In this document: piece by piece, positions 1-23,890 of the stretch
Numbering within the stretch: the first letter of the stretch is position 1
Layout: each line of letters opens with the position of its first letter
NCBI RefSeq assembly: GCF_035582795.1
Contig: NC_134370.1
Location: forward strand, 53,679,501 to 53,743,500
DNA: 64,000 nucleotides
Direction: 5' to 3'
Origin: Mycteria americana
Taxonomy: Eukaryota; Chordata; Aves; Ciconiiformes; Ciconiidae
Program-made: the position numbers and the translations under genes
The notes under the pieces: generated by a model
Databases searched by the model: none
What the model was told of the DNA's origin: nothing
Seen by the model: only the letters and a program-made list of their open reading frames with translations

Positions 1-630
1 AAGTTGCAGCCTTGTTCTGTAATATCTGCATGAGTATTTTATAATGTTAGAGGTTATTAAGCATGTTGATGTATAAAAATAAGCAGAAAGGTTGGCTGCT
101 TATAGATCATACAGCAGAAAGAGATACTAGCTACATAACAAATTAGTAACAGCTGGATGATTTGGAACCAGAAGGCCTAACATGCCAGTACAGGGCAAAT
201 TTCACTCAGTTTACGAAACAAGACTACTTTACCTAGGGCAATAAAACAATGCCTCTAGATTGGATTTTGCAGAACCTGGGGCTCCCTTGTGAAACTGCGT
301 GATAACTTAGTCATGACAAAGATGCCACAGGATCAGGGAGCCCAGCAGAGAAATTCTGCTGCCTGGAAGGATTCTGGCTTGAGAAATCCCGATCGCTTGA
401 AGAGTTGAAATTAATAAAGGAATTAAGCTGGAGGTTACAAAATTAAAAACGGAAGTCTATGCTTCTATGATTTAGTATGTCTTTATGAATATTTTGATTT
501 CTTTAACAATCATTTATGTTTAGAAAGATTTCATGGTATGAAGTGCTTAAGATTTTCTGCTTTTAGATTCTCTTTTGGCAGAGGGGTGGGGTTTTTTTCA
601 GTGGAAAGAATCTTCAGCTTTAATGTCATA
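1..630. other. AT-rich DNA, nothing recognised
   Basis: No open frame of note and no clear repeat. It should contain the 3' UTR of the candidate CARD gene if that model is right, but I could not pick a polyadenylation signal. Confidence 0.4.
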
Positions 631-818
631 TTACAAAATAAATTTTCTTGCTGTCTTTTGTTCTTTCCCTTTGACAGCCATCATTGCTGAGTAATGCCCA
701 GGGTCATACTTTTGAAAAGCAAATTCTTCCTTTGCAACATTGCTGCAGGACCTGATGGCAGAGCATATATCCACTTGTCCTTTTATAAGATATAGGTTGA
801 ATTCTGTAAGGGGTGTGT
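631..818 (-). CDS. Candidate terminal exon of the CARD gene
   Basis: A strong acceptor (a pyrimidine-rich tract of about 40 bases ending CTCCTGTGCCAG) leads into 61 codons and a TAA. It begins DTPLTEFNLYLIKGQVDICS and continues to KEEFAFQKYDPGHYSAMMAV before a basic tail. The 'F-x-LYLI...DICSAI' spacing faintly recalls the UPA half of ZU5-UPA/FIIND modules that accompany death domains, but this is an impression from memory and not a domain call. No convincing AATAAA was identified downstream before the window edge. Confidence 0.45.
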
Positions 819-3800
819 CTGGCACAGGAGTTAGATGCAGATCAGTAAAGAAATAGGAAAGGGAAAATCAGCAATTGTAGAAATGGTTTTAGGAATATAT
901 ACACATACATTCACATGTATATACAATTTTGGAATATTAAGCAAGAAATGCATTAAATGTAAGGTTATTTGTTCCACCAGAAAACATACAGCGAGCTAGT
1001 AGTCCAGATCATTACTTGCTTGGACAAAACTTCAGACTGACCCAAAATCTTCACCACAGAGTGCAGAGAGCTTCAACTGAAGTCAAAATAGTTGACCCAA
1101 GGTATCAAAGATAAATTTAGTCTGGATAAAAAGTCCTGAAATAATGCCTAGATAGCAGTTATTTTCCTAAGAGAATTTATTACCAGAACAAAACTTACTT
1201 GAAAAAAATATCTTCTCACATCTCTTGGCAGAGCATCAGATATTTTAGTAAAATACAATCATTTTCTTCTGCAACAAATTTCTACCCTTAGGAAATCTTA
1301 GTACAAAAAGTCACTAGCATTCAACTCATATTTAGTGACAAAATTGGACCAAAGTCTCTAATGGGACACTTAGCATAAATACGGCATTGCAGAGTGATTG
1401 TCCAGTTCGTTCATTGCTAAATCCTGCTTCCACCAAATTAATAAATTATATTAATTGCAAGGAAAGCAGAAGTGGGCCTTTAATCACACGATGATTCAAG
1501 AGATAATCCTTGTTAAAGAGTAGGTTTGTTACCACTGAAGGTGACAGATTAACAAATCCTGACTTTGATGGTTACTATTTTTTCAGTCCTGTGGCAGGTC
1601 TTTACAAGGACCTTAAAGTTTCCCTATTTATAATTTGATTTCTACTCCCTAGTTTTGTTCCAGCATTTTAGTTCAAGTGGTTTTATGGTTGTCCAACATA
1701 AAATATGACTTGTTGGTGTATGACATGTTACCTGCTACCTCTGCAGTGTATGAACATATTTTGATTTCTACAGCACTGAGTCAGCATTCTGATGAGTTAG
1801 CATTTATATTCCCGACAGCTGTTTATTCCTCTCAATGTAATTTCAGAGATAAATGTCCAGAAGGGATTTGCTGCCCCAGATCTATCAGAAAACATATTTA
1901 AGATATTCTGTGGTATTTAAATCATAAAAAAAATATTATTCAGTAACGCTAGGACAAAAACTGTCCTAATTTTTAATATTAAATAACTAATTTAAACCTT
2001 ACTGTGTTATTTTTAAATATAATGTGGTAAAAAGTCAAAGTATTTTTATTTTCTATGCAAAATCACATCAATGGTTTCTAGGGACATTATAAATTTAAGA
2101 AACATACTGAAACTTCCAATCAGTATTTTTATTTTACTCCTTTTATTTAGAGTTGAGAAAGTAGCCTTGAGAAGAAAAGAAGGGATAGGAACCAGTGCAC
2201 ATAAAGGACCAAACTGTTCCTGGAACAGCTGATTGATTGTGTCTTACTAAAGCCATGGGACTAGTTGGCACAGTGGAACATAAATCTTGATAGAAGGCAG
2301 AACCAGTAGACGAGGAGTCACTGCATTCTGAAATTCTTCAGGTGATGCTGCAGGGTTGTTTTGGCAAATATGGTGTAGGCTATGGTCATTCATATGCCAT
2401 CATTTTTTATCTACATTTTTTTTGTTTTAGTCTTCTGGTAAAGCAATGCAGATGGTGCAGAGTAGGATAGAGTGTATTTTCCTGCACCAGCCCTATAGAC
2501 TCTATAGGGTGCACTACCTGTGTTACCACAGCTGCCTTATCTTTGAATTTTAGTAAGAGTAAACTCTTCCTAGGAGATGTTTCTTCTAAACACTCTTCTG
2601 TTAGATGTGGGTTTACAATACGGCAGGGAAATTAAAGTTACTGTTAGTGAGATTATAGAAGTGTATGTTATCTGTGCAAAAGTAAAATCCAGTTCTGAAT
2701 CCCATTAAATTAATGACTGTGATCATCATCTGGTGGCAATGAATTCTACAGATTACTTATGATTTTGATAAAAGAATTAAAAATAATACTTAATTGCTCT
2801 GTTCTTCTCTATTCTTTCAAACTCATTTTTTTCCTCTCTCAGGACAAAAAGTAAAAAGGGATTCTTCATATAACTTCTCTAAAAGGTCAATTCATATCCC
2901 CTCGTACTTACCTTTTGCCTTTTCCTACTCTCTAATCTAAATCAAATGGTCCCTTTTTTCAAACTCAGATAGAAAGATACGTTTGCTTATTAGAGTAATA
3001 ATATATATTGCCTAATAATTTTAATTTTATCCTTACTGATTTTTTCTTTCTTCTTTACTGGGATAGACTAAAAGAACAGTGAACAGTATTACAGAGCAGA
3101 GTTTTCCAATAGACTCTTTCTGCACCCTAATATTTTGTTTGCTCTTTTGGCTGCTGTAGACCACCAATCATCAGTTCTTACTGAGCTTTCTGTATTATGG
3201 CTAGTGCTTTTTTTTTCCTCCCATGGTAACTATAAATTTAGAAATAAAGATAATAGGCCAAATTAACTTGCAGGCAATTCCATTAATCTCAGTTATAACT
3301 GTGTCCGTAAATGAACAGACAAACCAATGAATAAAACTATCATGGTTACTACTCCAGTAAAGTAAGACTTTTAAAATACAAGCAGTACTTTTGATGCTAA
3401 ACTCTTTAATAAAACACCAAAACTTGAATATTATTACCCCAGGACTTTTTTCCCAAATCCTTATGTCAGTAAACGAGGTTAAACAGGAGGTGAAAATCTT
3501 CATCCATATTTACCATTAAAACTTAAGCTATGGGGCAGACTTTCCTGTGAAAAGAAACTGTCTTGAATCTAAGCATTCAAGATCATTTATATGGCTGTGA
3601 CATATGTACCATAAAGAAAAATGTGTAAGTAGAAGATAATAATCTCTTTGATCTATTAATTAAAATTTATTTGGGCCATTTCTGTACAAGTGTTGCATCA
3701 CCAATGTAGACTAATGTATAGCTTTCTCAAAAATCATTAAGTGAATCTTGAGATTGGACAGTGGTTACAAATTATTTGATCCCTTCTAAAATAAATTCAT

Positions 3801-6800
3801 AATCCTGTGTCTGCATTTGTCAGTTTTCTTCTGGCTTTGTAAAACATCCTGAAGATTGCAGTACCTGTACTGTAATTTTGTATATGTGTGGTCAACATTC
3901 CACTTAGATTTAAAAGTGTAGTGAAGAATGGGTATCAGGGTCAATATATTTGTATAAAAGGTATTCTAAGTTTAATGCATTGCTTTATTCCCAGATTTGT
4001 GGATAGTACAATTTCTTAATTATAGCTCAGTCTTAAAAGATGTGAAAAAAAAGGTAATTTGATTGATTGAAATGCTGCTTTAAGTGATTGTGTATGTAGC
4101 ACTCTGCCTCTTGGGAAATCATTAGCTTGCACGGTAAACACCTACATATACTTTCACTGCAAGAACTCTAAAAACTTTGTGCTGAGATTCACATGACTAT
4201 TCATGCAATATCCAACACAAAAGCTTCCAAAACACTGTACAATATACATTATGAATGATACCAAAAGCAACAATAATTTTTTTTTTTCATAAATGGAGTA
4301 CCTGTTTCTTGGTAATATTGTTACTAGTGTTATTTGTATGACTTCAGTGCTTGGAGTTCCCAGGTGAGACTAACAAATGTGTATTCTGACTTAGAAGCGT
4401 TGATAATCAAAGTGTGTCTTTATGGAAGTACTGCTATGACAGAAAGATCTAAATGATGTTATTACATATAGTTTAATACATTTTTTTCCTCAGTGTGCAA
4501 GCAGAGCATTTGCCAACAGCACTCTTAGAAGAAATATTTTTATGGCAATTTTATGATTCAGTGCTGTTGGGGTGGAGCTGTAGCAAAGAATATGTAAATT
4601 TACAGAGAGGTGATCTTTCTAAGTACAGCCAAGTCTTAAGACAGAATGCTTCTCTGAAAAGTTTTTACTAAGGTGCAGTCATTTTGTTATGATCTCTTAC
4701 TCAAGGACTGGTTTAAATGTAAGTTAAGTTATGGCAAGAATATATGTATGTTCCAAGTGACTGATCAGCACAGTAACAGTGGGTACGCATACTACTAAGT
4801 CCACCTCCTCTCACACATACCGCTTCTCAAAACCGACACTTCCGTTTTATTAATCTTTACCAAAAACTCCTCACTTTTGTCAGAGGAAACTATTATAGAG
4901 GGAAGAATCATCTCAGGAGGAGAATATTGGGTGGCTGGCTGGCTGCTGGACAGGCAGCTGTAAGGCCCAATCCCCTTGTCTGTGTTTGGGCTACTACAAC
5001 GCTGCAAAGTGTACCTGGGAAGCATACGTAATGCAATAAGGCTCTCTGGGTAGTGAAGAGAGGGCTTAATATGCATATAGTAGCCCCATCACAGCTCCCA
5101 AGATATGGTATTTAGCTGGATTACTGGTGTACTCTGACTCTTTCTGATGCAAAGAACAACCTTTTGGGCATTCTTAGCCAAGAATAGCCAAAAATAAGTT
5201 AGAGTAGTCTGAGGCTGCACTAATTAACTGTAGAAGCCAGAAATTAGGGTAATTCAAAGATCAGAAAAAATGTTTTCAAGGCCAAAAGCTGCTTTCGTCC
5301 TTTTTCTGGTTTTGTTGCAAGCAGAATCCAAGGAGAATGGATAACTGGGTTCTGGATATTTTGAGACATAAGATATTGTGTCAGGAAGCATGCATAATGC
5401 ATTGCTATGGTAATGGTTACCAGTTGGTATCTTTTATGGAAAAAAAATTTAAATTATGTGTAAGTGTAGTTAGCTTACATAAGCAACTGCTACTTTAGTC
5501 AGAAGTGCCTTTTAGTTATCTATAATATCTTAGAACTTGTCATATTTTACATTTTGTGTAGCAAAGGTAACAGTTTACAGAAGTGACAATTTATGTAGAA
5601 GAAAATGCAGGTTATTACCCTGAGCTGAACAGGCTACTAGAGAAACAGTCTTGTCTTTATTATGGTGTACTATACTTACACAATACAATTAACTACAGTA
5701 TCTGATAACTGCTAATGTGCCAACATTTGCAAGAAATTCCAATAACAGACTGGAAAGTACTTTTTATGGTATTTCTAAAATGGAAATCTCAAAAATGACT
5801 TGTGAAAGACACTTGTTCTGACATCTTTATTTGCTTTTCTCTTCTCATCCTTCATTTCTCTTTTACACTTCTTTCTACTGCTGACTATAGCCATGGCTTA
5901 TGTGTTCCAGGTTCCAAACTGAGATGAGCAGCTTCCTGTCAAATGAGTGAATGCTACTGGACAAATTGACCTTGACATGACTGCTGTGATGCCAAAAGCC
6001 ACAAGCTAACTGGTAACAATTGTTAGGTATGTCAACGCTAATTTTTATTGTTGATGCGTGCTATAAAAATATCAGGTGGTAAAGAAGCACAACAGTGCAG
6101 TCACTTGGTTCATCAAAATCTAATCCTCTTGAGCCTCAATAAATGTTTGGGATCAGACATAATGTGAATAAAACCTTTTCCATATGCATATTACCTGCTG
6201 TATTAGCTCCGAATTTACAAAACATGTTTGCACTAAAAATACATGCAAAATTAGGGATAGCACCCTCACAGCAGTAATACTGGCAATGACTTGGGCATGC
6301 CAAGTAGCAGATGTTTGGAGGAAGTCAGTCAAGGTTTTGTCTCAGTAATTGCTGGCAAGAAATGGCTGCTCCTGCTTTTCTTGGTCCTTGATTGCATTGG
6401 CTCAATACATCCTCTCTTGCAGAATACCTCTATGAAGAGGTGCATAATCCATGACAATTTTCTTTTACAGATTCTTCCCACACAAATTTCATCAGGAGAG
6501 CAGGATTTGTTTTCTATTTCCAACGTCACTCCAAGACATTCGGATGTGGAGAAAAACATGACCATTCAGGAAGGAGCTCTGTGTTTCCATACCAAGCACA
6601 TCCTTAGAAGCTCTTTCAAGGACTAACTACTTCTCTAAATAATCCTTAGAGGTAGGAAAATGTGAGGTAGAATAAACAAGAGCACCAGGCTCTGCTTTTT
6701 CCTTTCTAGTCACTATTTTACAGAAACCCCTATCCTCCCAACTTCTTTCCCCAGACAAAACATAGAAGTTTGTGAGGGGGAAGGAAGGAAAGTAGTATCA

Positions 6801-9800
6801 TTTAAGCCTGTGAGCCTACTTTCAGAATAAAGGGAATTAATTTGCACATACAGAATTGTTCTGTACAGAATATGGGGTACAATCAGTCCTGCTTGTTAAA
6901 AACACTGCATGGCATTGGCACCACTGAGGGTTGACTGGAATGCTACTTTACATCTCTACACAAGAGTTACTACATCAGTAATGTAAAGATGATTACAGGT
7001 AAGAAATTACAATTATGTTTGAAGACTGTCATGTCTGGATTTCAGTGGTATTTCCTGTTCATAAGTCAAGGCATCTCATTAGAAATGGGTATATTTCAGA
7101 TTCCCTACACGTTTGTTTAACTATTAAAAAGTTAATGAATCAGAGCAACATGACAATCCTGCCTGATACAGCATGGACTTACTGTATTTACTAGGATTTA
7201 GAAGTGTGGTTTCTGTAAAGTGCTAGCTGGTGCATTCTGAAACATGTTCTAAAAGTACAGTGACCTCATTTCTGTCTTTGGATGGAGCCTCTGGTTACTC
7301 TGAACTGCCTGCTCAGTGGTTGGTTGATTTTGTTCATCTTACAAATTACTCACTAACAAAAAATGAATGAGCCGTGGCACATCTAAGGACCCTCTAATTT
7401 GAAGGACCTCCTTGTCAATGTCCTACTGCCATTGCCAGTCTGGCCTGGCTTTTCACCACACCAAGAAGAGGGGGAACTTTGACAAGGGGGATCCAACTCA
7501 CTGTGAAGCTATTTTCTGTTTCCTTATCCTGTTACATCGCTGAACAAAGCACAACTAGGCAGGACCTAACAGCTTCTTGGACACCTTTTAGAAGCAATGG
7601 GCGCTGTCGTGTTCACTGTACCCTACTTCAGTTTCCCATACTCCATATCTGATCATTTAATTCCCTTTTTCCTTTTTTTATCTCTTTACATAAGCTGTTT
7701 CTTTTCCAGAATAAAGAGTTCCAGCCTGCTCAATTATTTTTCTTATGGAAACCATTCTGTCCCATGCGTTTGATCATAGTTGCCTTTCTCTGAAATTTTC
7801 CAGATCTAATGCAACATTTTCAAGATGCAAGCACCAGAACAGCACACAGTATTCCAGGTGTGAGCAAACCGTGGCATTATAGACTGGCATAATTATATTT
7901 TCTGTTTTGTTCTTTTTTCCTCTCCTAACAATTCCAAACATTTGCATTTTTGGACTGCTGCCATGCACTGAGTTGATGTTTTTATGAAACTATCTATCTG
8001 TCACAATCCCAAACTTTCACTTCTGAGTGGTAACAGGCAGCTCAGAGCTCATCACTTTATTCATAAAGCCAAGAACACATTGCCCATGTACATCATTTCA
8101 CATTTATCTATGCTAAATTTCCTCTGTTATTTTATTACCCAGTCACTTAGTCTTAAGGCCCATCTACAGTTCTATGCATTCAGCCCTCACACTTCCTACA
8201 CTGAGTAAAGGTGTATCCTCAGCAAACTTTTTCACCTCGCTGCTAAGACCTTTTTCCAAACAATTTTTGAGTTTGTTAAGAAGAATCAGTCCCCTGCAGA
8301 ATTCCAGTGATGACTTCTCTCTGTATTCTTATTATGCTCGCATGGTTGAAGGTTTGGGAGGGGGCACGATTATGGTGCTGGGAATGGGGTATTCATCACG
8401 GGTCTATAGCTCTGTGTTGCAGAGCTGTGTGGTCCCTTAGCTCAGACTTCATGCATAAGAACCATTTGCAGTACTGTACTATGCTCTGTCTCTTGCAATG
8501 GGATCCTGCATACTAGCTGATCAACCTGATCTGTGACTTCTCGTTCATCTGTGCCTGACACACTGGTCAGGAAGTGAGGGGATTTTTCAGCATTTCGCAG
8601 CAGTTGTGGACTGCGTTTTCTGCCAAGATTCTGCATTCACTGAAATCCTCTTGAAAGGGATTTCTTCTATATGCAGTCCAGCCCTATGGCCTTTGCCCGT
8701 CATGTGATTTGACCCCATATTACATACACCCCTTCATGTGATCAGATACATGAAGTCTCACATGTAAGAAAGAATAAACTTCAGAAGTCTAACTTCTAGT
8801 AGGAGGTAGGATGCTAATAGCCTTTGCCAAAGGAATGCATCAGGGCATAGAAAAAGTATTTTAGAGCAAAGGAAGTTTGACAGTACACAGCCTTGTGACC
8901 CACTAAGATAGGACCCAATACAGCAGTTTAGTGAGGAAACTATGTAAAAGAGGAGTAGAAAGTCTATGGAAATACGATTTGGTTTGAAGTACGCATGCAA
9001 AAAAAGGAACTATATATAATCTGTTGGAAGTGAGTGAGTATACCAGGAGCAGTTAGTAAGACAGATAAAACCTGAATGTTTAAATGGCTATTGGTTTTTA
9101 TTCGGTTTGGACTTCATGGGCTTGATTTACCACTACAGTGCATTTAATTTTGTTGTTTGCATATGGGAAAGTGGGTATGAATGTTTCCAAGTCAGCAAGG
9201 AATCATCTCCAAATACGTGAAGCATGAAAATTATCGTATCTCTGAATTTGGGCTTGTACTATTCACTGGGTTGCATTTGGATGCCGTTTGTTCCTATCTG
9301 GGGAGCACAGACTCCAAAAGGGTATTTTGTTTACCACATGCAATGAAGGAAAGGCAGTATTCGTCACTATGCCTTTGAAACATCATTGTTACACTTGGTT
9401 AGTAAGGAACACGGACTCATTAAGTGATACTGGCACATCAAACCAAGAAATGCTTCTAAACCTCTTATATGTATTCTCTCTATTTTTTCTGGGGTGTGTG
9501 TGTATCATGTCCAGGAAAACTGGGCAAACAAATCATCACTACTAAATTTTATTATATTGTTACAATTCTAAATAATCATTCGCAGCAATAATTTCAAATA
9601 GGTAGCCATGGAATTTTTTAACAACTGTGACATAGTACCATCTAGTGGCTGAATTGAACAGGACTTTATCAGAGTCTGGTAGCTTAAGTTTTCAGTATTA
9701 ACTGCCAAATGCTGCATAGTTGCTGCTTGAGTTTATTATTATTATGGTGCAGAAAGCATCCTTCTACTTTCAATAGATATGTCACTTACTGGGTAACCTT

Positions 9801-12800
9801 GCAAATCTAAATATAACAAGGCTATTTATTGCCCTGGCTTGTGCACCCAGCTTTTTCTCAGACACAGCTTTTTGAATCCTGTGATTTTGATTGGGGAGGA
9901 TGGAAGATACTTGAAAAAATGTCTTTGCAGTTTTAAATCCAACATTACTTTTTGAGATTTTTTTCAATTACTATTTCACTGAGTATTCGTTGCAAAGAAA
10001 AGTCAGTTCTACCTCTAAAGCAAAAAGTTTAAGGGAGTTCTGAGCTATTACTTTACAAATGGTATGGCAAATGAGAAAAGGCCAATTTACTACATTCATT
10101 CAATAAGCCTGATACTGTAACACCTTCTCAATCATCCTGTCTTAGTGTGAATTTACTTTTTGTAACTAAGTTTTTTTAATTGTTAAGAAAACAAAATGTT
10201 GTAGTTACTTAGCCAGACCATAAATTTTCAGCCTAACATACAGTATAGATAATGTGATGTTTATATGATGAAATAGTAAGAAGTTAAATAGAAACTTACA
10301 TTTATAAGCATCAGATTGCCATCTTACAGAAAAATACAAGTAATTCTTTTGTGACTGCTAGAATATAGTGCCTTGTCAGATAATTGGGTCTTTATCCTCA
10401 ACAGTGCTGAGATTAAGGCATGAATTTAATTTTTTTGATTGTGCTCCCTGTGCTCTTACCAAGTTTCTGAAGGAAGACAAAACGTATGCCAAAATGCCAT
10501 AAACATTCTAATTCCTAAATTAATAATGATGTTTAGAGGTGTCAGATGCCAATATATGGCTGTCCAAATAAATTGTAAAAATCTGGTGCTGTGTCTTAGC
10601 TCTGCGCTTCTTCCTGAATAAATGCTGTTTACACAATTTGTACACATTATTTTTTATTATCTAAAGCAAAGCAGTGACTGTCTCCTTTCCAACAGGACTT
10701 ATAATTAGCAGTGAAGTTTTGCCACACTTAAGCTTTTTTTCCCAGTGCAAAATGTTGAATTTCAAATGTTGAAAACTGATTTATTTAAAAGCTGTAAAAT
10801 ACAATTCCAATAGATTCAGCAAGGTATATTCTACAATAGAACTGAGCCATTCCAAAATTTTAAACATAAGTAGGAAATCCATAAAGCAGACTTCAAATAC
10901 AAATTAATTACATGTACTATAAAGTATACACACAAGCATAATCCATTTACATGAAAATGGAAAAGCTGCGTGCAAAAATTTCTTGTTGCTTGCAGTGTGA
11001 AAATAAACGGCTTGTGTTATAACAACTGCAAAAATAGTATCTGATTTTCACAGTTTGGATATTACTTATTCTGATAATTTATTTGACAGACATTGTGACA
11101 CAATCTTTTCTTAATACAGGGGAAAGTAACATATATATGTACTATTAATGCTACTGAGAGTTGTCTGCTTCAGCATTTTAGTTCTCAATCAGTAAGAGAA
11201 TAAAAACTGTTGTCGGAGGAGAAAATAGAAAGCCTGAGGAAAATAATTAACTATTTTCTTTTATGTCATCTGCATGATTTTCACAGGGCCAGCATCGAAT
11301 GTCCAGTGATGCTTGAGAGATAAAGGAAATTGGGGGGGGGGAAGTGTTGAAAGCACTACTAATTAATTAGAGGTCATATTCAGTCAATTACTGACCCAAC
11401 CTATAATTCCACCCACTTGTCTAATAGAGATTGTCCTTTTTGGAGGGGGTATTCTGGGAAAGAAGGTACAGAGAGGACAATAAACAGAACCAGGGACAAC
11501 ATTTTGTGATCCAAAACCAGACCAAGAACATATCCTTAACACTGATTTGCAGAAGACATGCAATATGGTACTTCCATCTGGCATCTTTGTGAGGGTGTTT
11601 GTAGGTGCTTGTCCTGTGAAGTCCTAGACCAAATCAAAATATGCAAACCCCAAACTTACACAGTTTCACTTTTGTTGAAGATCACATTTTTACTGTATTC
11701 ATGAGAAATGCTGGAGCTGTATCAAGAGGGGAAATTGTGAAAGTAGAGCAGGGTATCCTTATTAGGGGTCTCACCTTTAAATGAAAAATTGAGTGTGAAT
11801 TCACACACCTTTGCATCTTTAATTTTGTTTTCTTTTTGCCCAAGGTGCTTTACTAACTGAACTATGTAATGACTATAGCTGGTTGACTCTTAACAGGATA
11901 ATCTTAGTATTTAGAACTGAGGTGATTTTGCTCTTCCCAGACATGTAAAGTAACCATATGTACCACCTATTCTGCAGTGATAAGACTCTGATAACTTGTA
12001 TTAACATAAATATAAAAACATAGCTTTACAATTGCTATGTAATTGTGTAACATCTATTATTATCTGTATTATCAAAGTACTCTGGCTCACCATGATGCTC
12101 CCACTGACATCGTCTGGAATTTTGTCATTGACTTAGAGACAGGAAGTTCTTGTCCTTAGAGTGTCTATGTGTCTGATACTTTTCTATCATTGGAAAAAAT
12201 ACCCTACAAATGATTGAGAATATTTACAAATATTGGGAAAAGGACAGTGACGCTATTTTTCATTTCCTCTTTATGCTCATCTCTTCTTTTCTAACTACTG
12301 CTATGTATTTCTAGTTGTCTTTATGCATTCTGTAGTTGTGCACTGTTGTATTTATGGATGGTACTTTCTGTCTCTGGTTGCCTTGTTGATAGGGTCCCTG
12401 CAACTGTGGTTTGTAATGTGTGAATTTATGCAAGATACATGCGGGTGGCACATTTGCTTTGCTTCCAGCTATATTGTTTTCTTCAAAGGTGGGGTTGTCA
12501 TTTTCACAAATTGTTACAAGCACTTTAGACTCTCTTCTCCACAAATACCGTGTTGATTAAGATTTTCTTTCTGGTGTTTGATACAAGTGTGGCAATGAGA
12601 AAAAACTAGCATAAGCCAGTTACCTATTAAATTTTTCTCTTGGATGGAGGAGATGAGTGTCAGCATACAACAGGAGGTGTGGAAAGAATGGCACTTTTTT
12701 AACCTAGTGTCAAGGTATATTTTTTTCCCAGGACACTAGTGTTGATGTAAATTGTGTGCTATTGCACACCAGTTTGTCTTCTCATTGAGTTCTCTGTTTC

Positions 12801-15800
12801 CAATAGGGGTGACTATTCCATTCTTGCTGTGTGACTTCTGGGGCTACATCAACTTCCACGCTTAAAACTGATACACTACAGGGAGAGTATAGCCCCAGCA
12901 TCTTTTTTTCTTTTTCCAGGGTATATGCAGGATTGATACACCATATGCTTTCTTATCAGGTGGAATGTATATAACATTCTTATAGTGAGAGTACCTGACT
13001 CTGCAAACACTGATACTGTCATGTGTTATGATATCTGGTTGATTTTTTTAGAGCTATCAAGTATTTCCAGCACAAACTAGCTTCAGGAAAGCTTTTGTAT
13101 TTGTCTACTACTTCCCTAATGTGGTTCTTCAGCTGCAGGCACTTCTTAATTGGTTTGGTTTTGTAAGTGAATTGTCTTGTGATGTTACAGGACCAGTCCT
13201 ACAGAATTAATCTATTTAAAGCCAAATGGCACATATTCAGATTATGAATGATGGCAAGTCTCCTGGAACTCTTGCGAATGTATATGGAGAAAGGAGTTCT
13301 GACTGGGATTTCATTAGTTGTGGGTATAGATCAGCCCATACTGTACAATTTGGGCCCATATTGTACGGTATCAAGTGTCTTTATATTCTATTACCATTTC
13401 ATGTTTCACTGCTACTCAAGATGAACTTAACCTCTTAGGACCACAAGTTTTTCAAACACTTCACAGTCATTAAGTTTTACTACACTTCTACAAGCTAGTG
13501 TAATCCAGTCCCTAGCTGAAACTTAACAAAACTAACCTAGACATGCAAAGATATTAAGGCTTCATAGTTTACTGTTTATATGCTACTGACACATCAAAAC
13601 AGCAGTACAGCTTTTAACTACTTTTCAAGCATTTTTCTCAGAATGTAAGTTTCTGTGTTAGCTGGACATACGTAAATTATCTACAGTATTTCTTAACTGC
13701 TAATGAGCCCTAGTCCATTCTCAGCTAGATTCCTTATTGAATTAAGCAAAACATGATTCCAAACACACAACTGCAAATGCCTGAATTGAATACTATCTAC
13801 ATAAAATGCAGCATTTTAGGACTTTCCAAAGTTTTGTTTGTGTCCTCTTTTTAAGGAGGACACAATCTCTGAAGCAGGGACTTAAATCTCTGAAGCAGGG
13901 ACTTAAATCTCTGAAGCAGGAACTTAAATCCTAGTATGCCAGCATGTATCAAGTTACATGCTGTTCTTACATAAGTCTTCCTCAGTTTCTATTCCTCTTA
14001 AAATAAACAAAAATAACAGGAACTGTGATAATTAACTGAGGTTGTCTCCCACATTCCAAGAAAGTTAATGAGTAAAATGTACTTCTATGTATGTACTTAG
14101 TCCTTGAACACTGAAAACTAGCAGTGTCATCAATGCATTACATCACTACTGATACCTGTAGTAAAGACCAGAGGTGGTCTGCATTCATCAGCATCAAAAG
14201 ATGTTCATTATACAAAATAGAATCATAGTTTACAAATGCCAAGTAAAACCAGATGCAAATGAAAAACTTCATCCAAAGCATCAATGAGAAAGCATCAGTG
14301 AAAGCATCAGTGGTGTACTTCATTTACATGGAAACTAAGTGACAGGAAATATTGTGATCATTAAAGACATCATGACACTGATAATTTTAACCTGTATTTG
14401 TTGAATGATTGATTCAGTTGTTCCTCAGCAGAAGTGCTTCCTTCTTGGTCACTCATCTGACAGGTTTCATGCAGCTCCATCTCTGATACAGCCCTCAGTT
14501 TTGTTTGCTCTGATAACGCTGGGAAACGTCTATGCATACGGTCTGGATAACAATAAAGAAATTTCTCTAATAGCTGATACATAGTTCAAAATAACACCTA
14601 CACTTTGATGTGATTCTGTCTGTCATGGTGCATTTGGGTAAGCGGCTGTTTTAGGTAAACATAATTTCTTTTGACCTTTTAAAGTTTTTCCCATATTCAT
14701 ATTTCCAACAGACTTGAGAGGTACAGGTCAGACAATTTATAGGAATTTTGGAAATAAACCTGAAATTCTTACTCCATATAAACTCCTGCCTGCCAATAAA
14801 GAATTGGTTTCCTACTGTATCATATAGACAAGTAACAACCAAATGTTTCTCCCCATGGAGTCACTAGGAGCTTTGCTTTATCCTATAATGAGAATTTTAT
14901 CAGAGAAGAGCAGAAAAATCAAGTCACTCGTGTTTTGAAGAATAAATACTGCTTTAACACTCCTTAAATTACTCTGGGTGTAATTCTTTGAAATAATGAG
15001 ACGAAAGAGTTCCAAGTGGTGTTAAATCAACCGTGTGCAAGCAGCAGTACATCATTCACTGGCCACATTTCACTAGCACAGTTCACAGTTTTTGCAGTGA
15101 ACTACATTAGTCCAGAGACTGAGTGACCTCTTGGAACCATGCCACATTTCCAGCACCTGTCAAATGGTTCTGTCTGTAGGGCATGAAGGCAATGGAAACA
15201 CATTAAAATACCCATATCTGCCAACATGGGCAGGTCCAGAAAACATAAATTGGCCCCTGCTGTACATGCAGTTGATGAATAACGGGGATTGATTCTATCC
15301 TGTGTGCTCAGTCAGCCTGCCATAAAGAGTCTCTTTAAGAAGTACAGTGGACAGGATGGCACACAACTGCTATGTTAGCTGGGGTGTTGAAGCCACATAG
15401 CACAGGCATAGCAACTTCTCATCATGCGTCTAGACAGTATTCCTTCCATTTTGATTCCTTTGTCCGATCAAACAGCTTTTATAGGGTGGAGAAGAAAATT
15501 ACTTTAATGGAAATAATAAACAATGCTCTTTTTCATCATATCTTTCTGTGTACCTTGTAACGGGTTTATCAAAATCAATCTATAAAAAACCACAATGCAT
15601 TAAAATCCATAATGCATAATCCATCTAATTGAATCTGCAACATATGCGTGCATGAATTTAAACAGATTATGTGCATGAATTAATGTGAATATATAGCATG
15701 TGGTTTTCTTTGCCTGCTATCCAGTAGATTATTATTAGCACTAAGAGATTCTAAAACTAGCTTTGCACACTTGATGTATGCTACTGGGGGAGGGGAAGGA

Positions 15801-17841
15801 GGAAAGAGTGTAATAGTGGCTGAGCTAAGGCAGCCCAAGGCATTTTTCTGCCTACACGAGGCACAGACAGACAGAATGGATTGGAGATGCTGTTCCAACA
15901 GTATCCTTTACTCTTTTGGAAATGTGCAGCATTGGCTTTCTCCTTTTCTCTCAGTATCTACTATGATGCTGTCAGGGAGACAGAGTCCTTGACTTGCACC
16001 CAACTGCCAAGGCCATCACCCTTTGTAACAGTACTACCCCCAAACCTTGTACCCACCGGAAGATTTAAGTCTGTTCTGTAACAGGCCCCTGCATGAGACG
16101 TTTAGGTGGTATAGAATAAAAATCTCCCTGCGCTGTCTCTGCAGTTAATTCAGAGGAAGCCAAAACTTGATTCCAAAATGTGTATTCTGAAAGACCTGGC
16201 TTTATAATGTATTTATAATTCATTGTATTGTATTTGTATGCTTTTTAAAAAAAATGATAGGGTAAAGAGGCCCTAAGTAGCCTTTTCATAACGCGGTTTT
16301 CCATGAAGTACATTCTACATGTATTAAAATCCACAACAACATTTGTGAACCTCCTTCGATTTTCTTGTAACTGCCATAAAACCGTACTGTAAATTCATCT
16401 TGAAAAGATACACTAAATGGACATCTGTTCATAAGTAAATTATGGTAAAATATCTGTTGCCTTCTCGAGTAATTGGATCTCTGTCAATTTTAAAAGTAAT
16501 TAGGTTTTCAAGAGAGGACACGCTACAGCTGTTTTAAAGGTCAAAATGGTTTTAGATTTTAATTTTTCTTATTTAACTTACTAAAGTTCTTACAGTACTC
16601 AGACTTACTGGTTTTTACTTATAAATAGTTGTAATACTAAGGCGTTTAAACCTGTTACTGAACGGATTGGTAAAAGACATGACTATTTTAATTAAATTCT
16701 AAAAGGACATCCTGTATACAACCTTTGAGCGCAACCCTGCAGTCATTGCTGAGAAAACTCTAGCTGACTTGACAGACTCAAATTTGGAATATAACAGACA
16801 CAAAAAATAAAAATAGGTCACTAGGATATAATTGTAAACACTCTGCACATATTTTTTCACATTATCTTTGCTAATATCCAGTAAAACTTTGTTTCTCAAA
16901 TAGGTATAAATAGTGTCTGATGTCCAAATAACATTTTGATTAACTTCAGTTGTAGTGTTGATATTTAGTAATGCAATCTTTTTCAAGCAGTTGTTTACAG
17001 ATAGGTATAGTAAATAATGTGTATAATTTATAGGTATAGTAAATAATGTGTATAATAATAGTAAATAACCAAAAAAATGTGAAAGGAATCAATTACTCAG
17101 GCACTATGCCTACAGAACTTCTCAATCTATTTTTAAATATTTCAGACAATGGGAAGCAAAGTAAAAGATCAGTGTTACATTTCTGAGCTAAGCGTTATCG
17201 GTAGTACTTAGGAATCCTTTTCCCTATCCTGACTCTTATTCATTAATAGCAGCAATGTTAATATACAGTACCAGTTTAAATGTTCAAAGTATAAAAATAA
17301 CATACATTTGTTCAATAAATTTTCCTTCCCATTATTTTCTCTTTTATAACAAAGAACCATAAAGACAGCAAATACTCTCTCTTGTTTAGTGCAAGAGAGA
17401 AAGTAAACACTAATTATAGCAAATAACTATTAGTGTCAAAGGATTCCAAGACATTACCAATATACACTTAAGCATTTCAGAGCAGACAGCGACCTTACCT
17501 TCATAGCCAAGGAGAAAGCATGTCAGCAAGTTAGGACAGACCTCCTCCAAAATGGAACAAAAAGCAGAGAAAGCACTTGGGCCTTTTAAAGATAGTTTAT
17601 CTAAAAAATATTCAGTTCTCTTCTTGTAGCTCTCCTGGGACCAAATGTCTTTGTATTCCTCCAAGGAAAAGACTCTCTTGTAAACCAAATATGACAGCAC
17701 TTTGTTCACATCCAGCTCTTCCAGTATTTTCTCTCTCTGATTGCTTGGGATTTCAGAAAGCCACTTATTCCTGTTTTCATTTTCTCTTTTGGTAGGTTTT
17801 GCACAGTTATAAAACCAAGATTTGGCTGCTCTTCCAAACAT
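631..17841 (-). CDS. Unassigned CARD-containing gene (four-exon model)
   Basis: Candidate spliced gene, function not assigned. Model exons in transcript order: 17841-17499 (start codon, CARD), 14542-14392, about 5014-4821, and 818-631 (stop). Seen directly: each piece is open, is bounded by an AG acceptor and a GT donor, and the phases chain correctly (exon 1 ends phase 1, exon 2 runs 1 to 2, exon 3 runs 2 to 1, exon 4 runs from 1 to a TAA). The total is 876 nt, or 291 residues. Residues about 33-110 look like a CARD; the rest has no domain I can name and includes an acidic, Ser/Gln-rich linker. CARDs in general mediate homotypic assembly of apoptotic or inflammatory complexes; a role here is inference. 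Weak points: introns 2 and 3 are long, so exons may be missing; the exon 3 acceptor is ambiguous (5014, 4957 or 4945 as first base); and the GTTAAA donor of exon 2 is weak. Confidence 0.45.
819..4820. other. Presumed last intron of the CARD gene
   Basis: AT-rich sequence without a supported gene. A short frame near 1198-1260 on the - strand reads protein-like (ISDALPRDVRRYFF) and ends at an AAG-type GTAAGT donor, but a stop lies before any usable acceptor, so it is not called. A - strand GTAAGTAC donor near 2911 has stops in all three frames directly upstream. Confidence 0.35.
4821..5014 (-). CDS. Candidate exon 3 of the CARD gene
   Basis: An open stretch ends at a usable donor (AGCG|GTATGTG). 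Several acceptors give the same phase: first base 5014 after GCTTCCCAG, 4957 after CCTTACAG, or 4945 after CTGTCCAG. The protein is Ser/Pro/Gln-rich at first, then more ordered: PPEMILPSIIVSSDKSEEFL followed by VKINKTEVSVLRS, which looks like beta strands. No family was recognised. The phase fits both the preceding and the following candidate exon. Confidence 0.35.
7705..8325 (-). mobile_element. Old internal CR1 LINE fragment
   Basis: Read on the - strand, the sequence follows the 3' half of a CR1 reverse-transcriptase frame as found in turtles, crocodilians and birds. It includes a recognisable 'HLEYCVLFWCLHLENVALDL' block, the counterpart of the usual 'HLEYCVQFWSPHLKKDIEKLE'-type consensus, with upstream blocks matching the 'LLNFNINKCKVM..'-type region further right. 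Both ends are truncated and the 3' tail is absent. Divergence looks high, so the insertion probably predates modern birds. Family assignment comes from memory of the consensus, not a search. Confidence 0.72.
13867..13929. repeat. 21-bp unit in three tandem copies
   Basis: The unit begins CTCTGAAGCAGGGACTTAAA and is repeated three times head to tail; the third copy carries one G-to-A change. A small recent tandem triplication with no coding content. Confidence 0.9.
14392..14542 (-). CDS. Candidate exon 2 of the CARD gene
   Basis: 151 nt, open, entered by a good acceptor (pyrimidine-rich run ending TTATCCAG) and leaving by AG|GTTAAA, a weaker donor. It starts with two bases that complete the GA|AC join with the CARD exon (giving Glu then Asp). 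It encodes a charged, probably disordered stretch with EMELHETCQMSDQEGSTSAE in its middle. No known domain was recognised. Its claim to be an exon rests on splice-site quality, phase fit and protein-like composition. Confidence 0.42.
14543..17498. other. Presumed intron 1 of the CARD gene
   Basis: No supported gene. Frames on the - strand near 14651-14842 and 16699-16986 do not have paired splice sites and good composition. A tandem duplication lies at 17001-17059. Confidence 0.35.
17001..17059. repeat. About 30-bp tandem duplication
   Basis: Two adjacent copies of an AT-rich unit containing TAGGTATAGTAAATAATGTG, followed by a partial third (TAATAGTAAATAA). Confidence 0.85.
17499..17841 (-). 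CDS. CARD-encoding 5' exon
   Basis: An open frame of 114 codons plus one base runs from an ATG in an A-rich context (A at -3) to a near-consensus donor, GAAG|GTAAGG. An in-frame upstream ATG at 17943 would add 34 residues, but the shorter start is preferred because the extension is low-complexity AT-rich sequence. The core reads KILEELDVNKVLSYLVYKRV, then an EEYKDI turn, then LSLKGPSAFSAFCSILEEVC and an LL-rich last helix. This matches the CARD pattern of caspase-2, CRADD and caspase-9 (an E-L helix 1, a 'KGPxAFxAFC' helix 5, and a terminal 'LL'). It could be an adaptor, a caspase prodomain or a CARD-only protein; no caspase QACxG motif was found anywhere on this strand. The fold call is fairly firm; the gene identity is unknown. 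Confidence 0.72.
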
Positions 17842-18640
17842 TTTGATATTTAAATAGAAAATAGAAAATTCTACTTCTACATTTATCGTGCAGTATTCAC
17901 AAATCTGTGAATTTGTGAATATTTCATTGTGCAAAGTAAACATAATGTGGATGGATAGAATGCAAATACATTCTGCTGTCTGTAATTATTGTAATTCTAA
18001 TGCAATAAAGAAGGCCTACATACAAATTATAAGGAAATCTAGCTCAGTGCCTGCAGCCTCCTAAGAGGATTACATTACACTAATTAGCCCTTTACAACTG
18101 TTAACAGCTTCTGAACCGTAATGATGAGACTGAGAATTGCTTAGTTACTGTTACTTTTTAATTCTGTAACTGATCTTCAAAGATATCCCTTTGCAAAAAA
18201 TAATTCATTCAAGAAGACAGCTGATCAAACTGAAATAATCTGTACAAGCTGGTACAGGACATAAAATAAAGTGTCTTCTATACACTTTAATTTGGTATTC
18301 CTCAGAGGCCATACCCAAACCACAGTATAAATGCCCTCCACTTCTTATTCTTTCATAAAATATTAGCTTTACAATGCCATGAAATTATAAATTTAGAAAG
18401 AATATTTCTGTAAATATATTGTAATCCTATACGCAAAAGGTAAAAAAAGGTTACAGAATAACACCTTTTTTGTGAAGGTAAATATGTCACTGTTAAGAGT
18501 AACAACATTTCTGCGTGTTTAGATCTTTAAGTTGTGTCCAAGCAAAATAAAACACCATATAGCATCCATTTCATGAACCAGGTTTAACAGTGGAGATTAC
18601 CGCAGTCCTAGTGGAGGTGTTCTGCCACTGATAATCACTC
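17842..18640. other. AT-rich upstream region of the CARD exon
   Basis: The 5' flank of the CARD exon is AT-rich and lacks a CpG island, unlike the promoters of the four conserved genes in this window. No TATA-type promoter could be assigned with confidence. An upstream non-coding exon may lie further right. Confidence 0.3.
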
Positions 18641-19190
18641 ATTGTGGATCACACATTACATAACCTCCCTTATGCAAATGCTGCTTAATACATGGACTTT
18701 TTGGTCTTGTTTTCATACTTTCTGTCAACATAAATTCCCTGTATAGAAAAGCTATGAGCACTTCCTGCTTCCTCCTCCTGTTTCTTAGTCTATTTTTTCT
18801 ATTTCCATTACTTCCAACTGGTAATACATCCATGGCCTCACTCATGTGGCCTTATCTGCAGTTTTCTTAAGGGTACTTTACCATTTGTGCAGCAAACAAA
18901 AATATTTTGCCAAACTTTTAGGAAAACAAGTTTTATAATATTTTCAGTCCGTGTGATCTTAAGATGCAACCACTGTATCCTCCTGTCAGGCTTCTTCTGT
19001 TTCTGAAATTTCAAGTATTCATCAGTCAGCATTAAAGTTGACCACTGACCATATAATATTTTAGGAATTTTATTGTATATATCACCATCCAAACAATTAA
19101 TTAGCCAGTCTTCACAAAATCGTTGGAAGCATTGCCTGTCACCTTGTGGTTGTTTGTAGATATAACAAGCCTTGTATCTGACACATTATC
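18639..19190 (-). other. Unassigned open region, two overlapping frames
   Basis: On the - strand an open frame of about 115 codons runs from just inside 19190 to 18838. Its middle reads GDRQCFQRFCEDWLINCLDG, followed by KIPKILYGQWSTLML. A second frame of 68 codons (18845-18639), rich in Arg and Lys, overlaps its end by 8 bases. A GT donor with phase 1 (AATG|GTAAAG) lies inside the first frame. Cys, Trp and charged residues make it look less random than neighbouring sequence, but I recognise no family. It could be an exon of an unknown gene, a decayed gene or retroelement remnant, or chance. It is not called as a CDS. Confidence 0.3.
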
Positions 19191-21379
19191 TGGAGTAAGT
19201 ACGAGTAGAATTATGTGTTATTTTAAGCCATATTAATGGTCCCAGTTTAGAATGTTATGGCTCATTGACCATAGCAGTGAGACTCTTGTGCTTCTTCTGT
19301 AATCATCTTGAACCTACTCAGGTAGAGCTACCTATGCACTGCATGGCATCACACACCACACGAAAGATGACCCCCTTGGGGGAAGATAGGTGCTGAAAGG
19401 CATCTGCTATCCTATTAGCTGGGTAGTACAGCTAAACAAGGGTAATATGCAGTAGGCAGAGAAGGTAGCCAACCTATCTGAAAGATCTGGCACATCTTCT
19501 AGGCAACGTTTAAAAGTAAGGACTCCTTTATAAGCCTAATTCTTAAGATTCCCTTTGATTTTGAACCTCCATAGAGGTAGTACAAATACTACACCCCTCC
19601 CCACCCCCCGCCCCCATTCCTTCCATATTCTCAATGAAACTTCATGCTTTTTTTTTCTCTCCAAGTTGTTTCTCTCTTGGAAGTTCTACTAATATTAATA
19701 CTGCAGTATCTCAGCAGGTAAAAGATCCTGATAAAGCCTGGTGCTCCACATGTTAGACAGCATCTTATGAATCAGCCTTCTTAGCCACTATAACTTCTGA
19801 TGGTAAGTTTTTCCATTACTTCAATAAATGCTAGAGCAAGCCCAAAGTTACAGGTTTTCGGTTCATAAGACAAGTGCCCAAAGATGAGATACAGAGGATG
19901 TAACCTGAATACATTTCTCAGAGTTTAACCTCAAAACTAAATCTGTGTTTATTTTATTGTGCTGATAACAGTGATTGTCATCAGTATCCTAAATGGAGTA
20001 ATAAATTCTGCACGGTAGTGAATTTAGAAGTTAAAAAAACAGCTAACCCATCAGATTAATAATGAAATTAATTTTTAAAGGAAGCTATAGAGTATGTCCT
20101 ATTTTTACACATGTCCATGGCAGTTCTGCCCATGACAGTCCATCCTCGAAGAAGAGTGACTTTGTTGTAATACATGATAGACATAGGTGTTGGCAAGTTG
20201 CATCTCTTCAGAAAAGTAAGGAAGATTTGGTGCAAATCAAAAACGTACATAGGTATCAGTTTGCTGAGGGATATTCTCCATATACCTTAAATAACAAAAC
20301 TAGTTTTAAAAAAAAGCATTAAAAAGTTTAGCTGGGGCAGAATGACTAGAAGAATTAACTACAAAGCTGTTAGAGAATTCTGGGCATTCATGGGAGAGAA
20401 AACTACTCTGCAATGAAAATGCAAAGAAAGGTTGGTATGACATCAACTGGTTAATATAGACAGTGAATTGTAACACACACAGTGGTCATCATAAATAACA
20501 GCTTGAAATTTGTGAGTATACAGTACAGGAGTGTCTTTGGGCTCCATGCACTGAATAATTCACAGGTTTTTTTCTAAAGGAGTACAATGTTTTGAGCCAG
20601 AAATATCCCCATTATTTTTGTTGGTAAAAGAATATATCCTTTTAATCTCAAATATGTTTTTATAAAATCTTAAAACCACAAAGAAAAATGGTGATATCAT
20701 AGGAAATGTATCAAATTGTGGACCAATACAAAATTTTACTCTCTGCCTTCTCACATGCCATGTAGTTATTTCCATCTGTGTAAACTGGAGAATAAAATGT
20801 TAAAATTCTGATTTGGTAATTGCCAGAATTCTAATAAAAAGCCACACCTTGCAAAACCTGAGTATTGGGTAACGGCAAAAATTTGAAAGTGTGCAAAAGT
20901 GTGAATACAGAGAAGTGGGTATAAAGTACAATCAAGGGAGGAAACCAGAGAAATTGAAGATGACAAAGTGTTTGAGACAAAAGGATACATGGAAATACAT
21001 GGTGGAAATAAACAATTTGTGGTGGAAAGCTATTGTTTTCCCAGCGTCAAGGAACTGAGGGGTTTAACTGCGATGACCTGTAAATGATACAATGCAGACT
21101 GTTTGACTGCAATAGCAGCAATAGCAGATGTACAGTCTTTCCAAGCTCTGAGTCCTAACTGCCTAGCAACTCAAACCTCTTCAAATTATTTACCTTGGTG
21201 CCAAGTTCTGCAATTTGTGCAAAGATCCTGTTTAGTTCAGACAGCCTAATTTCATAAGAATTGGTGTCAAACAGGAAGCATCCACTAGAAATAAGCTCTG
21301 GCAGTGTTTATGTGACATTGTAGTCAAATAAGGATGCAGTCTGACCCACACTTTTTGACATTGACATCGTTTCATAAAG
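19191..21379. other. Intergenic DNA, nothing recognised
   Basis: Ordinary AT-rich sequence. A frame on the + strand at 20062-20322 and opposing frames there look like chance openings. A C-rich homopolymer-like patch occurs near 19594-19613. Confidence 0.4.
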
Positions 21380-21920
21380 AGAATAGTGAAAGGGGGCGCG
21401 GCACAGACTGTCAGGGCCCTGGGAGCACTAACTGGCCTTACTGGCCCTGACTGACCTCCCCTGGGGCCTCCACCCATGCCCCTGTCCATGGGCCCAGGGG
21501 TTCCATTTAAGCTCAGCCTGGACCACCAGTCCCTGCCTGAGCTTCATCAGAGATGCGCTTGTCCCTGGCTCCTGTTGCTCTGGACTGTGACCTGTGGGCT
21601 GGCTTCCTGGTTTGACTTTGCCACACCACCATGGACCTGCCTGGTAACCACGGTGTCTGGCCCCAGTTACCATCATGCGACCTGACCTGTGGATTGCTTT
21701 CCTGGCTTGATCTCAGACCTGCCTCATCGCCATGAACTCTTCTGGCAGTCTGGACTCCTGGTTGGTCCTGACTGCCACCCCCAGGCTTGCCTGCCTTGTT
21801 TGAGTACCCTGAGACTGGGCCCTGGCAAGCCAGCCCCTGTCCTGCCAGCCTTGCTTATGGCATTGGGCTCCCTGTCCTGTCGGACGCAGCTGGCCCTTGT
21901 GGCTCCCTGACACGCATAAT
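21380..21920. repeat. GC-rich insert with degenerate internal repeat
   Basis: About 540 bp of C+T/G-rich sequence sits in AT-rich surroundings with abrupt edges. It contains two degenerate copies of a block about 96 bp apart (TGACCTGTGGGCTGGCTTCC near 21587; TGACCTGTGGATTGCTTTCC near 21683), plus many CCTGCC/CTGGC words. Open frames on both strands follow from the low stop-codon density of this composition, not from coding. It may be a dispersed repeat or the GC-rich end of an unclassified transposable element. No terminal duplications were established by eye. Confidence 0.55.
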
Positions 21921-23100
21921 TGCTTGGCTCAACACCAGGATGTTAAAACTACTTCTTTTAAAGTGTGTGCAATGGATCTTAGAGAAGGGCAAGAAAAATG
22001 CCCTCTTTGAAACAGTGTTCTTGTAATCTTATGGCCCTAGGGGAAACTATGAAAAAAGGTGAACCTGATTATGTGGACCTGCAGAGGTGGAGGTGTAAGT
22101 GACCAGATTGTACCAGGAGGTGCAGAAGTGGTAGGGAAGGATGGCTTGGGCTGAAGTGAGATCTTTTATAGGGGTGGGAAGGCATGCGTTGCGTGAAATA
22201 TTGCTTATGTGACAGTGTTTTGGGTTTCAATTCCTCTGCTCAGCTTGCTTTTGCCACTTTTTATTCATCTTTTCCATGTTCCTCTCTTACCTGCAGACCT
22301 CAACTCCCATTGTAATGCCTGGATCCGAGCTGGTTTTTGGAGAAAGTGTGGCTGTAGGCAACTCTCACATGTGGATGTGTTTAATGGACAGTGATCAGAG
22401 AGAAAGGACAACAAACCAGCCACAGTTGGGTGTTAGGGCTGACAAGACCTAAGAGCTGGGCCTCAGCAGTCTGTAGGGTGGAGCACCTAAAGTGTATGCT
22501 AATGAACAGGCCACATGCAAGTGGGTGCCATCCATATTTTCCATACTCTGACAATGTCTCTGTCTTTCGAAGGCACCTGGTTATTATCCTTTTTTGTTTG
22601 TATAATCCTTTGAAGGACCAAGACATCGGTGATGTTACATGTAGGTCCTTTGAAAGCATCTGTTTACTTAAATGGTATTGTTTAAGTGTTGCTTTTCTGT
22701 ATTTTTAATAGCAAACGAGCTCCACAGATGCTGAATTGGATACTTGGGAACATAAAGCAAACTTCATGTGTTTTTTCCCCTCCGTATTACAAACTACTTG
22801 TGCCTGTCATGCTCTCCACAAAATGGCATGAGCAGGATTTTGAGAATTAGTGATGCGATTCTTCACTGCAGCCCCAGTTTATTCAGCTTCTTGTTTATGA
22901 GGGTTGCAGAGAAAAGCTTTTCAAAGAACATTTTTAGGTAAATTGAAGCGGGGCTCAGACACAAGTTGTGGATATTGACGCTTCCCAATTGCTCATCGGC
23001 CTCAGAGCAAGATGGGCGGGTATGTTTATTTGTTTATATTTATGTATATTAACACCACAGCAGTGAGGGCTACAAATAGGTATTCACCCAGTTAGAAGAA
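21921..23100. other. Upstream flank of TARS3
   Basis: Intergenic sequence between the GC-rich insert and the TARS3 CpG island. Frames seen on both strands at 22380-22710 overlap each other and show no family features. Confidence 0.35.
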
Positions 23101-23109
23101 CGAATAATG

Positions 23110-23890
23110 ACAACAGGAACTCCCCTGCAAGGCCCCTGAAGTCCCCCGGCGCCTGGGCGGGGTCACCGCTGCAGCGACCGGCCTGAGCGCCTCCGCCGGA
23201 GGGGGCAGCACCGGACTCGGCGCGTCCGAGGCGGGCCGGGGAGCGACCGGGGAGGCGGAGCGTCCCGCCGCAGGAGGGCGGAGGCAGCCCGCTACCGCCG
23301 GCGGAAGATGGCGGCCGCGGCCGCCGAGGAGGCGGCGCTGCGCTTGTCGCGGCAGGAGCAGGAGCTGCGCTGGCTGACGGCGGAGGTCGGCCGACTGAAG
23401 GAGCAGGAGGCGCCGTGCTGCGCTGGGAGCTGCAGCGCCGAGCTGCAGCGGCTGAGGGCCGAGAACGAGAAGCTGCGCTACCGCCTCCTGCACCTGCGCC
23501 GCAGCCTGGCGGCCGAGCTGGGCAGGGCGGCGCCGGCGCAGCAGCGGCCGCCGGGCCCCGCGCTGGCGGAGCCCCCAGTCGGCGGCGAGGTAGCGCCCGG
23601 GGCCGGGACATCCCCGGCGCCCTCCTCGGTGCGGGTGGGGGAGGGCGGCGGGCCGCGCCGGGCCTGGCGGGAGCGAGCGCCCGCATCGCTGTGGGGTGGG
23701 CCAGGCCTCTGCGGGGAGGGGAGGGAAGGGAAGGGAAGGGAAGGGAAGGGAAGGGACGGGACGGGAGGGACTCACGAGGGCGAAACGCCTGGCCCGGCCA
23801 GCGGGGGTGGGCAGTGGCCCCGGGGATGGAGGACTGTCTCGGTCTCTGTCCGCACTCCTCATGTGCCCGGAGCACTGAGCAGTGCTTCTC
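23110..23890. promoter_or_regulatory. CpG island over the TARS3 promoter
   Basis: Dense CpG sequence begins abruptly near 23110, covers the TARS3 first exon and fades in intron 1. No TATA box is apparent, as expected for a housekeeping-type start. Very long open frames on the opposite strand (Pro/Ala/Arg-rich) are composition artefacts of the island. Confidence 0.85.

Follow-up and report, generated by a model that had tools for sequence, protein, structure and literature searches.

The window, by which we mean the whole stretch of DNA analysed here (64,000 nucleotides of the Mycteria americana genome; G000:C6:53679501-53743500), carries on its minus strand two exons that open a protein with an N-terminal CARD (a death-fold domain) and, further to the left, two open stretches that a sequence-only reading had proposed as the third and fourth exons of the same gene. 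Counted from the first letter of the window, with P numbers denoting retrieved proteins, the features of this region are as follows.

17842..17943, minus strand: in-frame N-terminal extension of 34 codons from an upstream ATG at 17943 (ATG contexts, homologue peptides, counts)
17499..17841, minus strand: putative exon 1 of the CARD isoform of TJP1, from the ATG at 17841 (MFGR...) to the donor AAG/GTAAGG (Pfam PF00619, orthologues, predicted model)
14392..14542, minus strand: putative exon 2 of the CARD isoform of TJP1, DRMHRRFPALSEQ...FNKY plus AG, with junctions as in annotated ZO-1 isoforms
14370..14391, minus strand: continuation past the exon 2 donor as far as a TGA (RLKLSVS, then stop); P0001, P0002 and P0003 end alike
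1..14391, minus strand: part of the putative TJP1 intron 2, the next exon lying outside the window
4821..5014, minus strand: proposed exon 3, apparently a chance open stretch in the intron, matched by 0/163 proteins
631..818, minus strand: proposed exon 4, unsupported, its frame broken in the sole relative, P0025

To the right lie open stretches of other genes, which we take to be TARS3, TM2D3, ADAL and LARP6. Eight open stretches in the neighbourhood were scanned against Pfam, with a match in six.

25826-26176, plus strand: TGS domain
36769-36948, plus strand: weak class II tRNA-synthetase match, below the cut-off
45889-46089, plus strand: TM2 domain
56188-56421, plus strand: adenosine-deaminase match, just below the cut-off
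62694-62906, minus strand: La domain
60459-61559, minus strand: SUZ-C motif

The tRNA-synthetase gene (presumably TARS3), whose first Met is at 23308, is oriented head to head with CARD exon 1, at a distance of about 5.4 kb (17943-23308). A CpG-rich island at about 23.0-24.0 kb (60-82% G+C in 250-base steps) coincides with the likely TARS3 start, and this divergent pair may share a promoter.

The sequence-only reading had joined the four minus-strand stretches (17841-17499, 14542-14392, 5014-4821 and 818-631) into an unassigned and perhaps lineage-restricted CARD gene upstream of TARS3, and its account of the letters is accurate: the stretches lie at these coordinates, have AG/GT borders and share a phase that yields 291 residues and a stop. 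The CARD, too, is genuine. It occupies residues 34-105 of the exon 1 product (numbered from the ATG at 17841), which matches Pfam PF00619 with E = 1.2e-10 and 41.7 bits against a cut-off of 23.9, and the predicted structure model has the six-helix death fold and aligns with CARD structures. By sequence, the nearest solved CARDs are those of RAIDD and caspase-9, both weak matches (E about 0.014-0.06), and in the fold comparison several CARDs, including those of CARD9 and CARMA1, are indistinguishable as nearest to the model. The CARD exon has a single match in the 1.35 Gb genome (nine candidates scored). It is separated from exon 2 by an intron of 2956 nt in the window; exon 2 in turn ends at a weakly scoring donor (CAG/GTTAAA) that splits an Arg codon, leaving two of its bases in exon 2. 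The first part of intron 1 (17410-17498, minus strand) keeps an open frame and is nearly identical among birds (P0005-P0007). Bird sequence is thus conserved even beyond the exon 1 donor, so that protein-like conservation within birds, taken by itself, is no proof of coding.

Searched with the proposed 291-residue protein, the databases returned 25 proteins, the strongest of which span exons 1 and 2 only; a profile search gave 139 matches, and among the 120 listed are named proteins from birds, turtles, lizards, snakes and many teleosts. Two of the teleost proteins (P0053 and P0117) are named as tjp1b or ZO-1 isoforms, and in three others (P0052, P0054 and P0106) the CARD runs on into a linker like GKPSLRRIKGRIHRSKSLDSIDLLDSN, which together pointed to TJP1, the gene that encodes the junctional scaffold protein ZO-1. 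When only long proteins were sought (query residues 1-165 only; length window 757-2408 aa; 325 candidates), 41 records were returned, and all 41 are named ZO-1, zona occludens 1 or tight junction protein 1. They come from birds (19), squamates (11), frogs (7) and teleosts (4), several being isoforms of one species, and there are no mammal records among them. The CARD is present in 40/41, the exception (P0163) beginning in exon 2, and the 18 CARD-bearing bird records are 1842-1997 residues long. Exons 1 and 2 recur in these annotated proteins together with the junction 17499/14542, as the sequence-only reading had drawn it, and the exact exon 2/3 junction YR/VTPSSE is found in 37/41, the other four being teleosts. 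Most of the matching isoforms are named 'isoform X' and were taken as computational predictions. In a domain scan, P0124, P0158 and P0161 each have a CARD, three PDZ domains, SH3, GUK and ZU5.

Sequence records from birds, lizards, frogs and fish already include the CARD-bearing N-terminus of ZO-1, which belongs to a known isoform of a known gene; what had been taken for an unassigned gene restricted to one lineage has the N-terminus of TJP1/ZO-1 as annotated in birds, squamates, frogs and teleosts. Three avian ZO-1 isoforms – from Phaenicophaeus curvirostris (P0123, X10), Pezoporus occidentalis (P0124, X2) and Columba livia (P0128, X6) – have the same exon order and junctions as the window and 93-94% identity to it over the CARD exon, with no substantive difference, the N-terminal extension being 34 codons in the window versus 25 in P0124. 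Identity to the window over the CARD exon is 90-94% in five birds, 65-69% in two lizards, 61-65% in two frogs and 56-57% in two teleosts, whereas the ZO-1 body is 91% identical in the two frogs and 81% in the two teleosts; exon 2 is barely recognisable in these teleosts (5/51 residues). Given this faster divergence of the CARD and the poor match of exon 2 in the two teleosts compared, the CARD may be weakly constrained.

The common phase and the GT/AG borders of the four stretches speak for a separate four-exon CARD gene, restricted to one lineage and ending at 631, but such a gene is almost certainly not what lies here. No homologue of proposed exon 3 occurs among the 163 retrieved proteins, and proposed exon 4 is matched in one of them (P0025, 38/62 residues), which follows the window in frames -1, -2, -3 and -1 again across 1099-528, beyond both ends of the exon. 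Such frame switching means that the exon 4 frame is not kept, as one sees where non-coding DNA has gained and lost bases. Neither 14392/5014 nor 4821/818 is a confirmed join, and the retrieved proteins give such a gene no conserved terminal exons of its own. The supposed odds of '1 in 27' for a chance fit in phase fail as well. Over positions 1-14391, acceptors that open at least one phase-fitting internal exon of 120-260 nt number 59 on the minus strand versus 69 on the plus strand, compared with 42 ± 9 in 30 first-order shuffles (the minus strand lying about 2 SD above the shuffles); with a crude splice-quality filter, which proposed exon 3 passes, the counts are 14, 18 and 10.3 ± 3.8. Since the opposite strand has phase-fitting exons just as often as the minus strand, the chance argument gives no support. 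Annotated bird, squamate, frog and fish proteins, moreover, splice the CARD exons to TJP1.

The sequence-only reading had warned that its model might be incomplete, rightly, as the gene appears to continue into TJP1 to the left of the window. A tblastn search with ZO-1 of the 200 kb that adjoin the window on its left in this genome placed the TJP1 body directly beside the window, on the strand that also carries the CARD exons (negative positions lie left of the window).

G000:C6:53498590-53654365, minus strand: TJP1 body, tblastn ZO-1 segments in order
-25135 to -25267 (G000:C6:53654233-53654365), minus strand: putative TJP1 exon 3 (linker), tblastn E=4e-13
-137260 to -137316, minus strand: shared ZO-1 exon, STTMEETAIW... 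(MEETAIWEQHTVTLHR), from homology and an in-phase splice

Exon 3 (VTPSSENPNG...SIDFCEFT) lies 39.5 kb beyond the exon 2 donor, to which it is joined in phase; its acceptor consists of a long T tract and CAG, and its donor is GTAAGT. Exon 1 (343 nt), exon 2 (151), exon 3 (133) and the shared exon (57) add up to 684 nt, phase 0, and the spliced translation reads ...NKYR VTPSSENPNGATCSVSQGKPSLRRIKGRIHRSKSLDSIDFCEFT STTMEETAIWEQHTVTLHR. The flank holds 17 ZO-1 segments at 62-98% identity (tblastn, E<=3e-5), two further matches being cross-matches between PDZ repeats. Beyond the shared exon, ZO-1 segments lie at -143 to -164 kb and the C-terminal ones reach -180.9 kb; with the CARD exons included, the gene spans about 199 kb. 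The exons for PDZ, SH3, GUK and ZU5 that follow were placed here by tblastn, the domain scan having been done on the parrot orthologue P0124. When the splice model was carried through 16 further exon regions against a human ZO-1 guide sequence, 820 of 911 aligned columns were identical; one stretch (with 16 guide residues absent and about 10 mismatched) and the last join are imperfect. From these sequence comparisons we conclude, with a probability of roughly 96%, that the coding sequence of TJP1 (ZO-1), in its CARD isoform, begins with the two minus-strand exons 17841-17499 and 14542-14392.

Where translation of this isoform begins is less clear-cut. Among the 163 retrieved proteins, MFG is itself the start in 37, and in 107 a Met precedes it by fewer than 60 residues; for these 107, the distance from Met to MFG is exactly 25 residues in 79, 26 in eight and 21 in six. 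By eye, the extension peptides appear related across birds, turtles, frogs and fish. As bird conservation extends past the exon 1 donor, it is weak evidence on its own, and the argument for the extension rests on the frog and fish match; judged by these peptides, many species may in fact initiate translation at the upstream ATG.

A second product might arise at exon 2. If its donor were read through, translation would end at the TGA at 14370, giving a CARD-only protein (171 residues here) besides the ZO-1 fusion, and the window itself reads RLKLSVS and then TGA. P0001, P0003 and a named pigeon protein (P0002) share this end, finishing in RLK-S-S at the same point past exon 2. In the bird contigs of P0001 and P0003 (1364 and 2403 bp), exon 1 is joined to exon 2; being shorter than the 2956 nt intron of the window, these contigs suggest cDNA, although those species may instead have a shorter intron or a processed copy. 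Together with the weak exon 2 donor, the three read-through ends suggest that some transcripts may end in intron 2. Against this, no AATAAA or ATTAAA is found on the minus strand from 14369 down to 12000 (about 2.4 kb), and retained introns in pre-mRNA contigs would give the same picture; we regard the CARD-only form as distinctly improbable. The long-protein search, with its window of 757-2408 aa, is by design blind to such short forms. CARD-only proteins can cap or block CARD assemblies, and by analogy a short protein of this kind could do the same.

For the ZO-1 fusion itself, the mRNA would be spliced in the order exon 1 (CARD), exon 2, exon 3 and shared exon, and the product would be a ZO-1 scaffold with an N-terminal CARD, three PDZ domains, SH3, GUK and ZU5, the domain order being that of the orthologues. 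Transcription in birds would presumably begin at a separate upstream start, in the interval that separates the CARD exon from its head-to-head neighbour at about 23.3 kb. If it behaves like the CARDs of other proteins, the domain may self-assemble or recruit another CARD protein, and so may let the CARD-bearing subset of ZO-1 enter CARD-CARD assemblies, while the PDZ-SH3-GUK body would tether CARD oligomerisation or signalling to the junctional membrane. This mechanism is a guess drawn from the other CARD-MAGUK proteins, tentative and on balance doubtful. Less likely still is the broader proposition that a CARD-MAGUK version of ZO-1, driven by a promoter of its own, is ancestral to teleosts and tetrapods, kept in teleosts, frogs, squamates, turtles and birds and lost in mammals. 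Were it true, CARD signalling (apoptosis or inflammation) in non-mammals would be linked directly to the scaffolds of tight or gap junctions, and this function would be independent of the CARD10/11/14 line. If mammals are without the CARD, no study of the mouse or human protein can have covered this part of ZO-1. What the analysis yields in any case is the removal of a false orphan gene and a corrected 5' model, in birds, of TJP1, a central junction gene; the points of interest are the role of a CARD on ZO-1, its retention from fish to birds despite faster change, and its possible absence from mammals.

Two known systems resemble the arrangement proposed here. CARMA or CARD-MAGUK proteins consist of a CARD, a coiled coil, one PDZ domain and SH3-GUK. 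Like CARD10, CARD11 and CARD14, the predicted bird protein has an N-terminal CARD on a PDZ-SH3-GUK scaffold; unlike these single-PDZ proteins, CARD-bearing ZO-1 has three PDZ domains and a ZU5 domain (P0124, P0158, P0161), and in this it departs from the CARMA family.

The second system is zebrafish tjp1b, for which the passages on its isoforms in one paper describe three transcription starts (PLoS Genet 2023, PMC10703405). A literature search covering titles and abstract openings, outside preprints and most subscription journals, returned no other account of a CARD isoform and none in birds. As described there, ZO1b-Alpha (2005 aa) is the only tjp1b isoform with an identifiable domain in its unique N-terminus, namely a CARD; its transcription starts separately, and its expression is largely non-neuronal (PMC10703405). 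The tagged CARD isoform was unseen in injected zebrafish embryos, for which, according to the authors, failed in-frame repair or the stage could be the explanation (PMC10703405). Our own teleost comparison used two teleosts, the zebrafish sequence itself not being among the compared letters. ZO1b-Alpha as described in those passages is alike in plan to the bird model, with an upstream first exon coding for the CARD, added exons and the shared PDZ/SH3/GUK/ZU5 body (PMC10703405). Its order runs from the CARD and its own first exons through exons 3 and 4 to the shared exon 5 (PMC10703405), so that an exon 4 precedes the shared exon in zebrafish, whereas in the bird model, as in the bird records, exon 3 is spliced straight to it.
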